From Rhodospirillaceae bacterium (GTDB lineage: Bacteria > Pseudomonadota > Alphaproteobacteria > CACIAM-22H2), in NCBI GenBank assembly GCA_022843945.1, contig JALHMR010000048.1:1-33844 (forward strand): a stretch of DNA of 33,844 nt, in the 5' to 3' direction. The notes below the pieces were generated by a model. It saw only the letters and a program-made list of their open reading frames with translations, did no database searches and was not told the DNA's origin. Made by a program: the position numbers and the translations under genes. Numbering within the stretch: the stretch's first letter is position 1; each line of letters starts with the position of its first letter. Below are positions 16,691 through 20,852 of the stretch, one piece after another.

Positions 16691-19033
16691 ATGGCAGCTC
16701 CAGTTTATTCGCGTAGCCCGACGCCGAGCCGGTGGCTCAAGGCCACCAAGAAGGGCTCGACGCTCTCCGGCAGCGGCTCGAACGAGCACCTGCAGGCTTT
16801 TGCCTCCGGCGTGACGCTGGTTGGCGGCACGGGCGGCGACACCTACGCCGTCTACGATTCAGGCACGAAGATCACCGAGGCCGCCAATGGCGGCATCGAC
16901 ACCGTCATCACTTACGGCAGCTACCGGCTCGGGGCGAACCTCGAGAACCTGGTCATGCACGGTGGTGGCAACGATTGGGGCTCGGGCAACTCAGGCAATA
17001 ACCTGATCATCGACGGGGCCGGCAACGACCACATCGAGACCGGTGGCGGCAACGACGTCATCACTCTCGCCGGCGGTGCCAACAACGTCGTCGCCACCAA
17101 GGCGGCGAACAGCGTCACGTGGGTCGAGAACTTCAAGACCTCGGGCACGCTCGACAAGCTCGACCTGCGTGGCTACGGCTTCCAGGGCTTCGCCTCGGTG
17201 CAGGCGAAGATGAGCCAGGTCGGCTCCGACCTGAAGATCGATCTCGGCAACGGCCAGTCGGTCATGCTGGAGGGCCGCACGGCCGGCCAGATCGTGGCGG
17301 GCAACGTGACGGTCGAGGCGGCGAGCAGCACGCCAACTCCGACGCCGACCCCCACACCGACGCCGACCCCCACGCCGACTCCCACGCCGACACCGACGCC
17401 GACTCCGACTCCGACGCCTCCGCCGACCGGCACGCTGCCGTCACCGAATGCGCCGCTCTCCGGCATGAAGATGACCTTCATGGAGGAGTTCGACAGCCTC
17501 AGCCTGCGCACCGGCACCGCGGCGACCGCCAACGGCATCTGGAAGACCTCCGACGGCTGGGGCAATCGCACTCTGTCGGGCAACAAGGAGCTGCAGCTCT
17601 ATGTCGACGCCGACTACAAGGGTCTCGGCCTCAATCCGTTCTCGGTCAAGGATGGCATTGCCACGATCACGGCAAGCAAGACGCCGGATTGGGCAAAGTC
17701 CGCGGTCGGGTACAACTACATCTCGGGTGAGCTGACCACCGCGGGCTCCTTCGCCCAGCAGTACGGCTACTTCGAGACCCGCGCGCAGATGACTCCGGGC
17801 AAGGGCATGTGGCCCGCCTTCTGGATGCTGTCGACCAACGGCAAGTGGCCGCCGGAGATCGACATCGTCGAGGCGATCGGGCACCTGCCCAACCACGTCT
17901 ACGTCAACACCCATTCTGCGACCAATAGCAGCGCGGGCAAGGACGTGTGGTCCAACGAGGACATCACCAAGGGTTTCCACACCTACGGTGTGAACTGGAC
18001 CAAGGATTACGTGACCATGTATTTCGACGGGAAGGAGGTCTACAAGCGCGCCACGCCGGCGGACTTCCATACGCCGATGTACATGCTGCTCAACCTGGCG
18101 GTCGGCGGCAACTGGCCGGGCTCCCCCGACAGCACCACTGACTGGACGAAGTCGAACTACAAGATCGACTACGTCCGTGCCTGGTCGCACGATCCGAACG
18201 CGGCGGTCTACAAGAACGTGGTGGCCGGGACGAATCCTCCGCCGACCACGCCGCCTGTCACCAACCCGCCGGTGGATCCGTCCAACGAGCTCAAGGCTGT
18301 CCTGAGCAACGCGACGAACCCGCTCGACCTGGGCGACAGCTTCACGGCCAATGCTACGGCCGCGGGCACCTCGTCGACCTACTCGGCGAGCCAGATGTCG
18401 ATCAGTGGCGTCACCGGCGACGTCACCGTCGCCTACGACGCCACCGGGGGCATGACCGTCACGAACAATGGCGTATGGAACGCCATCAAGAACGCGATGG
18501 TCAACGCGACCCAGAGCGGCTCCGTGACGATCAACAACTTCGTCGACGTGCAGATCACCCGCACGAGCGGCGACGACACCGTCACGGTGAAGGATGCCAA
18601 GCGCGGGACGATCTCGACGGGTGCGGGCAACGACACGATCGACGTGACGGCTGCCAGCAACCTGAACTACGACAACGTGATGAATATCAATGCCGGCGAC
18701 GGCAACGATACCGTCAAGTTCTCGGGCACGAGCATCACCAGCACCAAGATCGACGGCGGTGCGGGCGATGATCGGATCGAGGTCGGGACGCACCAGTCGG
18801 CGACCGTCACCGGCGGCGCCGGAGCTGATATCTTCAGCTTCATCGCCGGTGCGCATGCGACGATCACGGACTTCAACGCGTCCGTGGACCGGATCGAGCT
18901 CAAGGGCGTCAGCGCCAGCTCGGTCAACGTCACCGCCAATGGTGGCTCGACGCTGATCGATCTGGGCGGTGGATCGACCATCCAGCTGACCGGCGTGACC
19001 ACGCCGAACAGCGTGCAGCTCGCCTACGCCTGA
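16691..19033 (+). CDS. Secreted RTX-like family-16 glycoside hydrolase
   Basis: A 780-residue modular enzyme with no N-terminal signal peptide. Residues about 40-210 are RTX-like, with GGTGGDTY and GAGNDHIETGGGNDVITL. A (TP)15 linker follows (214-243). The family-16 hydrolase domain spans about 255-510, with YGYFETRAQM, GMWPAFWML and the catalytic motif EIDIVE (389-394; nucleophile E389, acid/base E394). A second Thr/Pro linker leads to a C-terminal region (about 535-780) with GAGNDTIDV, GDGNDTVKF, GGAGDDRIEV and GGAGADIFSF, probable calcium-binding repeats. Family 16 enzymes cut beta-1,3 or beta-1,3-1,4 glucans and related polymers. The plan resembles the rhizobial exopolysaccharide glycanases ExsH and PlyB, which leave by type I secretion, and the exporter genes stand just upstream. 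The exact substrate is not readable. Confidence 0.92.
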   Translation: MAAPVYSRSPTPSRWLKATKKGSTLSGSGSNEHLQAFASGVTLVGGTGGDTYAVYDSGTKITEAANGGIDTVITYGSYRLGANLENLVMHGGGNDWGSGNSGNNLIIDGAGNDHIETGGGNDVITLAGGANNVVATKAANSVTWVENFKTSGTLDKLDLRGYGFQGFASVQAKMSQVGSDLKIDLGNGQSVMLEGRTAGQIVAGNVTVEAASSTPTPTPTPTPTPTPTPTPTPTPTPTPTPTPPPTGTLPSPNAPLSGMKMTFMEEFDSLSLRTGTAATANGIWKTSDGWGNRTLSGNKELQLYVDADYKGLGLNPFSVKDGIATITASKTPDWAKSAVGYNYISGELTTAGSFAQQYGYFETRAQMTPGKGMWPAFWMLSTNGKWPPEIDIVEAIGHLPNHVYVNTHSATNSSAGKDVWSNEDITKGFHTYGVNWTKDYVTMYFDGKEVYKRATPADFHTPMYMLLNLAVGGNWPGSPDSTTDWTKSNYKIDYVRAWSHDPNAAVYKNVVAGTNPPPTTPPVTNPPVDPSNELKAVLSNATNPLDLGDSFTANATAAGTSSTYSASQMSISGVTGDVTVAYDATGGMTVTNNGVWNAIKNAMVNATQSGSVTINNFVDVQITRTSGDDTVTVKDAKRGTISTGAGNDTIDVTAASNLNYDNVMNINAGDGNDTVKFSGTSITSTKIDGGAGDDRIEVGTHQSATVTGGAGADIFSFIAGAHATITDFNASVDRIELKGVSASSVNVTANGGSTLIDLGGGSTIQLTGVTTPNSVQLAYA
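17330..17419 (+). repeat. Tandem Thr-Pro coding repeat, 15 units
   Basis: Fifteen six-base units of the form ACnCCn encode (Thr-Pro)15, the linker between the N-terminal RTX-like region and the hydrolase domain. The units differ at the wobble bases. Slippage by one unit keeps the frame, so linker length may vary between strains. Confidence 0.95.
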
Positions 19034-19078
19034 GGCGTAGCGTAAACGGCCGGCCGCGGGCAGCGATGCCCGCGGCCG
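19024..19078 (+). terminator. Two hairpins at the end of the glycanase gene
   Basis: The first, CTACGCC-TGA-GGCGTAG (19024-19040), has the stop codon itself as its three-base loop. The second has 12-base-pair arms (19051-19062 and 19067-19078) closed by a GCGA loop of the GNRA type. No T-run follows, but the strength and position suggest transcript termination or 3' end protection. Confidence 0.65.
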
Positions 19079-19102
19079 TGCTGCGTTTGTCGGCCAGGGG
19101 AT

Positions 19103-19276
19103 ATGAGAATGGGGACGATCGGCATCAGGGTTCTGAAGACGGCGCCGCGCCGCATCCGGCGCAGGCGCGCGGTGTCGGCGACGCGCCGGCGCCAGTATTC
19201 GCGCCATCGCCGCAGCCGGCTGAACCGGCCGCGCTACGAATTCACGGTGCTGGTACCGCATAGCGCCGGCGGTTGA
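19103..19276 (+). CDS. Possible small Arg-rich protein
   Basis: An open frame of 57 codons starting MRMGTIGIRVLKTAPRRIRR and ending YEFTVLVPHSAGG. About one third of its residues are Arg. AGGGG lies 3 bases before the ATG, which is rather close. It sits 24 bases after the strong hairpin at the end of the glycanase gene. It resembles no family I know. GC-rich DNA easily yields Arg-rich frames, so it may be chance. Confidence 0.3.
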   Translation: MRMGTIGIRVLKTAPRRIRRRRAVSATRRRQYSRHRRSRLNRPRYEFTVLVPHSAGG

Positions 19277-19333
19277 GCGGGCGTATCCGGCAATCGTTTG
19301 CAGGCAATCACGCGTTCAGGCGGCGACGCCGCC

Positions 19334-19363
19334 TTGACGGGCCGTCCCGGTGCCAGCTATGAC
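19334..19363 (+). promoter_or_regulatory. Predicted sigma-70-type promoter of the metY leader
   Basis: TTGACG (19334-19339) and TATGAC (19358-19363) are separated by 18 bases. Transcription would start near 19370. The arms ACTCGG (19362-19367) and CCGAGT (19394-19399) overlap the -10 box and the start and could be part of an operator. Confidence 0.55.
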
Positions 19364-19369
19364 TCGGGC

Positions 19370-19457
19370 CTACCCTGTTGGAGAGACAGGGTGCCGAGTT
19401 GGACAGGGACGACAAAAAAATTCCAGGGGCTGCCAGTTCTGGCGGCCCTAATTTTTT
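19370..19457 (+). ncRNA. Structured leader or small RNA upstream of metY
   Basis: The predicted transcript from the promoter at 19334-19363 would contain ACCCTGT (19372-19378), which pairs with ACAGGGT (19386-19392). A second copy of ACAGGG at 19403-19408 could compete for the same strand. A complete intrinsic terminator follows and then, 100 bases on, the metY start. The layout is that of an attenuator or riboswitch, or of a free small RNA of about 88 bases. By eye it is not the SAM-II (metA) motif often found before methionine genes in alphaproteobacteria. The class is unknown to me. Confidence 0.45.
19414..19457 (+). terminator. Intrinsic terminator upstream of metY
   Basis: Arms GGGCTGCCAG (19427-19436) and CTGGCGGCCC (19439-19448) form a 10-pair stem with one G-T wobble. 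It is flanked by seven A residues (19414-19420) and six T residues (19452-19457), so it can work on both strands. It stands in the leader of metY and not at the end of an operon. Confidence 0.85.
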
Positions 19458-19556
19458 GGCGCTGATTTTGAATCGCTCCAAACTGACCCTGGCCGGTCTT
19501 TCCTTTCCGTCGGCGCTCCGTTAGGACTGGGCCAGCCTCCTCACTCCAGGCCAGCC

Positions 19557-20852
19557 ATGCCCGATCCCAAATTCTTCCAGTTCGATACGCTGAGCCTGCA
19601 CGCCGGTCAGCATCCGGACCCGGTCACCGGGGCGCGGGCCGTGCCCATCTACCAGACGACGTCGTACGTCTTCCCCGATGTCGACTACGCCGCCTCGCTG
19701 TTCAATCTCGAGCGGGCCGGCCACATCTACAGCCGCATCTCTAACCCGACCGTGGCCGTCCTGGAGGAGCGCCTGGCGGCGCTCGAGCAGGGCGTGGGTG
19801 GCGTCTGCACGGCGAGCGGCCAGGCGGCGCTGCATCTCGCCATCGCCACCCTGATGGGCCAGGGCAGCCATATCGTGTCCTCGGCCTCGATCTACGGCGG
19901 CTCGCACAACCTGTTCACGCACACGCTGCCGCGTTTCGGCATCACCACGACATTCGTCGATCCGCGCAATCCCGAGGCGTTCCGCCAGGCGATGCGGCCG
20001 GAGACACGGCTGGTCTTCGGCGAGACCCTGGGCAATCCCGGCCTGGAGGTGATGGACGTCGAGGCCGTGGCGCGCGTGGCGCACGAGCACGGCGTGCCGC
20101 TGATGATCGATTCGACTTTCACCACGCCTTACCTGTTCCGCGCCTTCGAATGGGGGGCCGACATCATCATGCATTCGGCCACCAAATGGCTGGGCGGGCA
20201 TGGTGTCGCCATCGGCGGGGCGCTGATCGACAGCGGCAAGTTCGACTGGGAGAAGTCCGGCAAGTTCCCGACGCTCACCGAGCCCTATGCCGGCTATCAC
20301 GGGCTCGACTTCGCCGAGGAGTTCGGACCGCAGGCCTTCATCATGCGCGCCCGCGCCGAGGGCCTGCGCGATTTCGGGGCCTGCATGAGCCCGGGCAACG
20401 CCTTCTACATCCTGCAAGGGGTCGAGACCCTGCCGGTGCGCATGGCGCGCCATGTCGAGAACGCCCGCAAGGTCGTGGCCTTCCTGGCCGCGTCCGAGGA
20501 CGTGGCCTGGGTCAACTATCCCGAGCTGCCCAGCCACAAGGACCATGCCCTGGCCCGGAAGCTGCTGCCGCTGGGCGCCGGCTCGATCGTCAGCTTCGGC
20601 ATCAAGGGCGGTCGCGCGGGTGGGCGCAAGTTCATCGAGGCGCTGCGCGTCTTCTCGCACCTCGCCAATGTCGGCGACGCCAAGTCGTTGGTCATCCATC
20701 CAGCCAGCACGACGCACCAGCAGATGGATGCCGCCTCGCTCGCCGCCGCCGGCATCGGCGAGGAGATGATCCGCCTGTCGGTCGGCCTGGAGGATCCCGG
20801 CGACCTGATCGACGATCTCGGCCAGGCGCTGCGCGCCTCGCGCAAGGGCTGA
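19557..20852 (+). CDS. metY: O-acetylhomoserine aminocarboxypropyltransferase (sulfhydrylase)
   Basis: This PLP enzyme of the Cys/Met metabolism family joins O-acetylhomoserine with sulfide (or methanethiol) to give homocysteine (or methionine). The 431-residue length and the N-terminus FDTLSLHAGQHPDPVTGARAVPIYQTTSYVF are those of MetY and not of the shorter MetZ or MetB. PLP contacts include YSRISNPT (about 58-65), the SGQAA loop (about 87-91) and the Schiff-base lysine K210 in SATKWLGGHG. The C-terminal half has EFGPQAF, the MetY-type insert GYHGLDFAEEFG and LVIHPASTTH. No Shine-Dalgarno is obvious. The gene is preceded by a leader and terminator and followed after one base by an alpha/beta hydrolase. 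Confidence 0.94.
   Translation: MPDPKFFQFDTLSLHAGQHPDPVTGARAVPIYQTTSYVFPDVDYAASLFNLERAGHIYSRISNPTVAVLEERLAALEQGVGGVCTASGQAALHLAIATLMGQGSHIVSSASIYGGSHNLFTHTLPRFGITTTFVDPRNPEAFRQAMRPETRLVFGETLGNPGLEVMDVEAVARVAHEHGVPLMIDSTFTTPYLFRAFEWGADIIMHSATKWLGGHGVAIGGALIDSGKFDWEKSGKFPTLTEPYAGYHGLDFAEEFGPQAFIMRARAEGLRDFGACMSPGNAFYILQGVETLPVRMARHVENARKVVAFLAASEDVAWVNYPELPSHKDHALARKLLPLGAGSIVSFGIKGGRAGGRKFIEALRVFSHLANVGDAKSLVIHPASTTHQQMDAASLAAAGIGEEMIRLSVGLEDPGDLIDDLGQALRASRKG

Follow-up and report, generated by a model that had tools for sequence, protein, structure and literature searches.

A conserved, terminated leader upstream of metY as a candidate sponge for an AbcR-like small RNA

The window analysed here is a stretch of 33,844 nucleotides from a Rhodospirillaceae bacterium (assembly GCA_022843945.1, contig JALHMR010000048.1, positions 1 to 33,844 of the forward strand). 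It carries metY, whose product matches the NCBIfam model NF006004 with 785.6 bits against a cut-off of 636, and ahead of the gene lie a promoter, a 5' hairpin, a short word and an intrinsic terminator (Table 1). A preliminary description of this DNA, made from the letters alone, had named the promoter, a stem with two competing partner strands, the terminator and metY downstream of it. The letters bear all of these out; both pairings of the stem can be read, and the local hairpin is favoured when each is computed alone (-9.7 vs -6.9 kcal/mol for the alternative). Further upstream, at 16691-19033, the window encodes a beta-glycanase-like protein with a proline-threonine linker and calcium-binding-type repeats, which scores 364 bits with the EglC model, below that model's cut-off of 700.

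Table 1. Coordinates of the leader and metY in the window, and of the partner small RNA elsewhere in the same genome (G000).
Feature	Position	Strand	Basis and remarks
Promoter P1, TTGACG-18-TATGAC	19334..19363	+	Direct reading; -35 at 19334-19339, -10 at 19358-19363
Predicted transcript start from P1	near 19370	+	Prediction from promoter
5' hairpin ACCCTGT/ACAGGGT	19372..19392	+	Direct reading, fold; genus-specific
Hairpin arms	19372-19378 (ACCCTGT) with 19386-19392 (ACAGGGT)	+	Letters; alternative partner ACAGGG at 19403-19408
Conserved word GAGTTGGACAGGGAC	19396..19410	+	Conservation, complementarity to AbcR-like sRNA seed, duplex energies
Word core GAGUUGRACAGGG	19396-19408	+	Conserved across leaders
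Intrinsic terminator with A-tract and T-tract	19414..19457	+	Terminator scan, fold, conservation
Terminator stem	19426-19449	+	10 pairs, 7 G-C
Spacer to metY	19458..19556	+	Candidate second-promoter room; TTAGGA at 19521-19526, a poor -35
metY, O-acetylhomoserine aminocarboxypropyltransferase	19557..20852	+	ATG at 19557
Partner AbcR-like sRNA	G000:C12:32828-32914	-	Behind trxB and a LysR gene

The 100 nt from 19366 to 19465 fold to -44.1 kcal/mol, compared with -32.5 +/- 3.8 kcal/mol for shuffled sequences (z -3.1). A consensus promoter scan over 18500-20000 listed no promoter, and the same stretch holds two terminator-like sites vs 0.8 +/- 1.0 in shuffles; as bare pattern matches, the parts of the leader are within chance. 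They rise above chance because they are conserved among relatives, with TTGAC before the word and a terminator after it.

metY was retrieved from 61 genomes, 23 of which belong to the family of the window. The family gene scores above 770 bits in 18 of the 23, and in 16 of these 18 the word GRGTTGRACAGGG stands before metY with TTGAC ahead of it; the two exceptions are a contig that starts inside the word (G013) and a genome that has no word and a different upstream gene (G007). For genus g4 (G004, G008 and G011) the best metY-like gene is more distant, and no leader was found. Six genomes of other families have metY above 600 bits: one has a shortened word (G050), one the variant GAGTTCACAGG (G023), and no word is visible before metY in G047, G029, G056 and G052. 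Family f29 has metY in 9 of 12 genomes (E up to 1e-180), and seven of these nine carry the shortened word AAGTTGACAGGG, with one further change in G411; both genomes of family f123 carry the full word. The leader is absent at the close metY genes of G180 and G406, as at those of G007, G047, G029, G056 and G052.

The resulting set of 26 leaders consists of the cases upstream of metY plus G062, and metY follows directly in 25 of them, most having been collected by way of metY. TTGAC, which also served to select the leaders, is present in all 26 at 38-62 nt before the word. The distance from the nearest TTGAC start to the word is 38-48 nt in 24 leaders, and the word begins some 2-12 bases past the predicted start in 24 of 26. 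Only the two leaders of the window's genus (G000 and G001) contain an inserted 5' hairpin, the other 24 beginning almost at the word; it is in this genus that the distance grows to 58 and 62 nt, which marks the hairpin as a local addition. In 25 of 26 leaders a terminator lies at most 100 nt downstream of the word, vs 19 of 520 base-composition shuffles, and G017 has a terminator stem without a good T-run. Many leaders have small stems near the word, and these vary in sequence and place; the conserved core is a single 13-nt word, and no stem is conserved beside it. The preliminary description had let its reading depend on whether relatives keep the stems ahead of metY, and the outcome divides in two: the leader itself is kept, whereas the stems are not, the competing stem being genus-specific.

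A search for promoter plus word in 385 genomes of the class gave 7 matches vs 4 with the reversed control, of which four precede metY, one is the unit of G062 and two are chance-like. With a looser pattern, 22 genomes bearing the sRNA or metY yielded only G062, G144, G141 and G257; the last of these (L280) has TTGAC and GAGTTAGACAGGGAC about 15 nt before an ATG, with no terminator, and may be chance or an ordinary sRNA target. Three loci (L008, L011 and L013, from G021, G022 and G020) share the palindrome TACTCTACAGTAGTA about 50 nt before the metY promoter, a possible repressor site. A CsrA site (consensus ACARGGA) in the word was set aside, since its GGA is missing from G006, G003 and G002.

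The counterpart of the word was found within the same genome. With no mismatch, the word occurs in G000 only at metY; with one mismatch it occurs at three places, all of them opposite-strand copies of one other element; and with up to two mismatches it occurs at 27 places vs 33 for the reversed control, so that only the places with zero or one mismatch are meaningful. The element is an sRNA-like gene, made up of a hairpin ACGTCTCCCAGACGT, an unpaired stretch GAAGCCTCCCTGTTCAACTC and a terminator, and the leader word is the complement of its exposed seed CCUCCCUGUUCAACUC. The 14-base complement TCCCTGTYNAACTC is present in 19 of the 23 family genomes, and the reversed control in none of the 23. 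Over the 385 genomes of the class it is present in 21 genomes vs 7 with the reversed control; the contexts of 19 matched genomes outside the family comprise the sRNA in 13, the metY leader of G144 and five chance-like cases. A scan of named genomes returned at least 115 stretches, among them Azospirillum, Niveispirillum, Nitrospirillum, Skermanella, Micavibrio, Reyranella and Tagaea, and the matches listed there include odd labels such as Pseudomonas putida and an Anaerolineae record. The hfq gene is present in 21 of the 23 family genomes, that of the window included.

A covariance model of the sRNA (R1) was built from 35 of 38 prepared sequences, three cut-off ones being dropped. It matches all 23 genomes of the window's family, which supplied 9 or more of the 35 training rows; the match is weak in G011, which has only a diverged copy. 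Outside the family it matches 14 of 16 genomes, several with diverged seeds. Both-side changes support 6 of the 12 pairs of the alignment, namely three terminator-stem pairs in 7-13 rows and three first-hairpin pairs in one row each. Eight genomes of families f16 and f52 have the sRNA and no promoter plus word, so the leader is not the general partner of this sRNA. The sRNA is also present in G004 and G008 (L246 and L247), of a genus where no metY leader was found, with a seed that has one extra A. In G000 the final 32 nt of the sRNA recur twice, with terminators that differ (L034 at G000:C18:27997 and L035 at G000:C18:60760), each time beside a phage-integrase gene (Pfam PF00589), which suggests that genomic islands use the sRNA gene as an attachment site; L085 and L101 in G367 may be compared, a genome that also has a second copy with a different upstream part.

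The predicted pairing of word and seed is extensive. Duplexes of the G000 seed with 19 leaders range from -29.8 to -41.1 kcal/mol, vs means of -13.9 to -20.5 kcal/mol for shuffled leaders, and 18 of the 19 are better than all 300 of their own base-composition shuffles; the duplex of the window itself, at -30.3 kcal/mol, is surpassed by the best of its 300 shuffles (-30.9 kcal/mol). Differences in the word mostly keep the pairing through G.U: the second letter is a G opposite U in G009, G020 and G021, and the seventh a G opposite U in G000 and G001, while in G003 the seventh letter is in a G-C pair, two of the three sRNA copies of that genome having a C. Because the seed of the main sRNA is nearly constant, co-variation with it is mostly limited to such wobble-preserving changes. 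The match of word and seed is present in four families (f1, f29, f123 and f41).

In rhizobia, Agrobacterium and Brucella, AbcR sRNAs regulate ABC transporters and the uptake of amino acids, and the partner sRNA occupies a comparable genomic place. Of 171 fetched sRNA loci, which overlap and are not independent, 135 have a LysR gene upstream on the same strand, and in 134 of these it is 116-497 nt before the seed (at L111, with 30% identity, it is 3950 nt before it); a trxB match is present as well in 90 of the 171 overlapping loci. Many of the 36 loci without LysR have little upstream sequence or are island-end copies. In G000 the LysR gene is 191 nt before the seed, with trxB ahead of it, and among the best 25 NCBIfam matches no specific LysR is named above cut-off. 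The order trxB-vtlR-abcR1-abcR2 is described for Agrobacterium (PMC7486931), and abcR of Sinorhizobium is reported to adjoin lsrB (PMC3712013). The partner sRNA thus lies in the same place, behind trxB and a LysR gene that is a putative counterpart of vtlR/lsrB, as AbcR1/AbcR2 (ar15) with VtlR/LsrB in Rhizobiales; unlike in Agrobacterium, no tandem pair of sRNAs came to notice at this locus. An LsrB box (GCAT-N3-TG-N3-T) is found in 26 of 120 upstream regions vs 3.0% of base-composition shuffles, G000 not being among the 26.

The AbcR motifs described are M1, CUCCCA, and M2, GUUCCC (PMC5461406). M1 is also present in the first hairpin of the partner sRNA, before the seed, in 23 of the 35 aligned sequences, G000 included, and is missing from 12; M2, looked for between the hairpins, occurs in none of the 35, and the linker reads CCUCCCUGUUCAACUC instead. 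When L033-L035, L079 and L242 were compared with Rfam, no family reached its gathering score, and the AbcR/ar15 family, which we take to have an Rfam entry, is not among the matches up to E 10. The core UUUCCUCCCU of aR8/MmgR/SisA-D is found in 0 of 35 aligned sRNAs; MmgR (RF00519) scores 29.0 bits at L079 and 21.6 bits in G000 vs a gathering score of 41, and SorX (RF02784) 30.1 and 21.4 bits vs 46.6. With M2 missing and Rfam scores staying below threshold, we call the sRNA AbcR-like by its genomic place behind trxB and LysR, rather than a proven AbcR.

In a number of genomes a second, related sRNA (B2) is encoded ahead of the leader, in the same orientation: in G006, G002, G003, G015 and G023, in all seven f29 genomes with a leader, in both f123 genomes and in G062. 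B2 is also present in G029, which has no leader. G062 combines a B2-like sRNA (a weak match, 22.1 bits) with promoter, word and terminator, and has no metY in the 12 kb around. In f29 the word is one base short and B2 is short by one base or more in 5 of 7 genomes; duplexes of f29 leaders with f29 B2 reach -27.2 to -36.3 kcal/mol, while four f1 leaders with the shortened f29 B2 reach -18.0 to -23.6 kcal/mol. The full-length B2 of G412 and G413 pairs with the short word through one bulge (-34.5 and -34.3 kcal/mol). This matched shortening is one evolutionary event, seen in several genomes, as read from the sequences. The leader of G050, GGCAAGUUGACAGGGAG, paired by hand with its own B2, CUCCCUGUUGACUUGCC, matches at 17 of 17 positions, two of them G.U. 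The adjacent copies in G006, G002, G003 and G015 each carry a mismatch, and a leader's own B2 is often not its best partner: for G411 it gives -27.2 kcal/mol vs -33.9 kcal/mol with four others, for G247 -29.2 vs up to -37.8 kcal/mol, poorer than most, and likewise for G002, G003, G015 and G144.

A further B2-like sRNA is found in the window's genome (L292, G000:C13:122101-122184; R1 27 bits). Upstream of B2, L007 and L021 share TTAACC-N5-GTTAACC, partial versions of which occur at L024, L288 and L290; it resembles the consensus of a CtrA site.

Building on the observed sequences, their conservation, complementarity and co-occurrence, and one co-evolved pair, we consider it reasonably probable that the metY leader is a terminated 5'-UTR RNA that binds, and most likely sponges, the AbcR-like sRNA, with metY expressed by read-through or from a second promoter. 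From P1 a short RNA, about 88 nt long, would be made and would end at the terminator ahead of metY; its word of 13-15 nt would pair with the exposed seed of the AbcR-like, probably Hfq-bound sRNA encoded elsewhere, and in several relatives the upstream B2 sRNA could pair with the leader too. Transcription from the metY promoter would then titrate or destroy the sRNA and so couple methionine synthesis to the other targets of the sRNA, and metY itself would come from read-through, which 10 genomes could hardly avoid, or from a second promoter, for which 14 genomes have room. That these RNAs are made, that Hfq is bound and that the two pair inside the cell, as well as which of them controls the other, we infer from sequence. 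As far as the letters go, the leader has features expected of a sponge, its own promoter and terminator ahead of the gene and, by the duplex energies, extended complementarity to the sRNA seed; AACAGGGAG is proposed as the reporter site for pairing with the sRNA. A wider proposal, which we advance tentatively and rate somewhat below an even chance, is that a conserved antisense pair links methionine synthesis to the AbcR-type network: the metY leader would be the sponge of the AbcR-like sRNA, and in several families B2 and sponge would form a co-evolving two-gene cassette that can persist without an adjacent metY.

The same pairing could also act in the opposite direction, with the sRNA regulating the metY leader by changing termination or RNase E decay near the nascent 5' end, and hence metY output. 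We regard this as rather unlikely, though it would fit the place of the leader directly before metY in nearly all cases collected, mostly via metY, and also the nine g5 genomes and G409, where only 17-26 nt lie between the end of the terminator stem and the start codon of metY, and read-through of P1 would have to be the main source of metY; for UpsM/StsR of Rhodobacter, a mode of action partly of this kind is described (PMC8307010). However, 75-225 nt separate the end of the word from the start codon, the word does not overlap the terminator stem, no conserved antiterminator pairing was seen by eye or in folds of single leaders, the gap of 46-174 nt between terminator and metY in 14 genomes leaves room for a second promoter, and G062 keeps its leader with no metY beside it. 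Distances to metY count to its start codon, which for eight loci whose match starts at residue 5 was placed 9 bases before the match. Sponging is favoured because the word lies far from the metY start and outside the stem, because the terminator is nearly always kept, and because of the G062 unit; sponging and control of metY may both hold, as for UpsM/StsR.

That the word is a DNA operator or is left over from an integration site, and matches the sRNA only by accident, seems to us very improbable: such DNA does move, as the copies of the sRNA 3' end beside phage-type integrase genes in G000 suggest, but the leader has its own promoter and terminator, and the match recurs in four families with wobble-preserving changes and one matched deletion. 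Little more can be said for a metabolite riboswitch of a new class, the chance of which we consider slight. The order of promoter, structure, terminator and methionine gene, together with the fold energy, had suggested a riboswitch or attenuator in the preliminary description, and SAM_alpha (SAM-II) is indeed reported at metY in Rhizobiales and Rhodobacterales, though not in nine Rhodospirillales genomes of one survey (PMC4239095). Yet a covariance search of the window against Rfam gave nothing at gathering score, and the riboswitch reading fails because there is no Rfam match and the flanking stems are not conserved; the core is one word rather than a structure, and in f29 word and neighbouring sRNA both have one base fewer. 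The earlier statement that the leader does not match SAM-II holds, as 19270-19570 gave five weak matches up to E 10, none of them a SAM or SAH class and one of them BjrC1505, an alphaproteobacterial sRNA (E 9.8). Of the options that had been left, a free small RNA comes closer than another class or a protein operator, in the form of a terminated word antisense to a trans-acting sRNA; another Rfam class found no support. A leader peptide read through the word from a TTG start (M[N/D]RD...) can be dismissed as next to impossible, for although TTG RAC AGG GAC is open in several leaders and would end as MNRDALLE* in G022 and G020 (by eye, in plus-strand loci), the 13 word bases are kept regardless of codon position, later codons differ (by eye), and the one-base deletion of f29 shifts the frame, which decides the matter.

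If true, a sponge that forms part of a methionine gene's leader would tie the synthesis of amino acids directly to their import, and would offer one explanation of how metY is controlled where SAM-II was not found. Among open-licence PMC papers, judged by title and the start of the abstract, we found none on this leader or on an AbcR sponge, and CCUCCCUGUU was not found there.

A 5'-UTR-derived sponge of MicF is reportedly present in Salmonella, and to go by the title it is likewise a sponge for an sRNA that comes from a 5' UTR. One study of AbcR points to AbcR sponges as a subject for future searches (PMC8844928), and the partner sRNA may have an entry in a study of Azospirillum sRNAs (PMC7685610). 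SAM-II, as surveyed, shares with the present leader the gene, the class and the position before metY (PMC4239095), but the leader in the window does not match it. The CrfA sponge of Caulobacter demonstrates the sponge principle for a similar sRNA: as described, a small RNA pairs with the exposed CCUCCCU of the alphaproteobacterial SisA-D (aR8) family (PMC12559287). It differs in that CrfA pairs with aR8, whose core is missing from the sRNAs aligned here, whereas in the present case the pairing RNA is the metY leader; the main text of that paper does not mention metY (PMC12559287). A comparable layout is described for UpsM/StsR of Rhodobacter sphaeroides, where an RNA derived from a 5' UTR ahead of a gene cluster is likewise bound by a trans-acting sRNA, with control in cis and in trans, although the genes (dcw) and the sRNA are other ones (PMC8307010).
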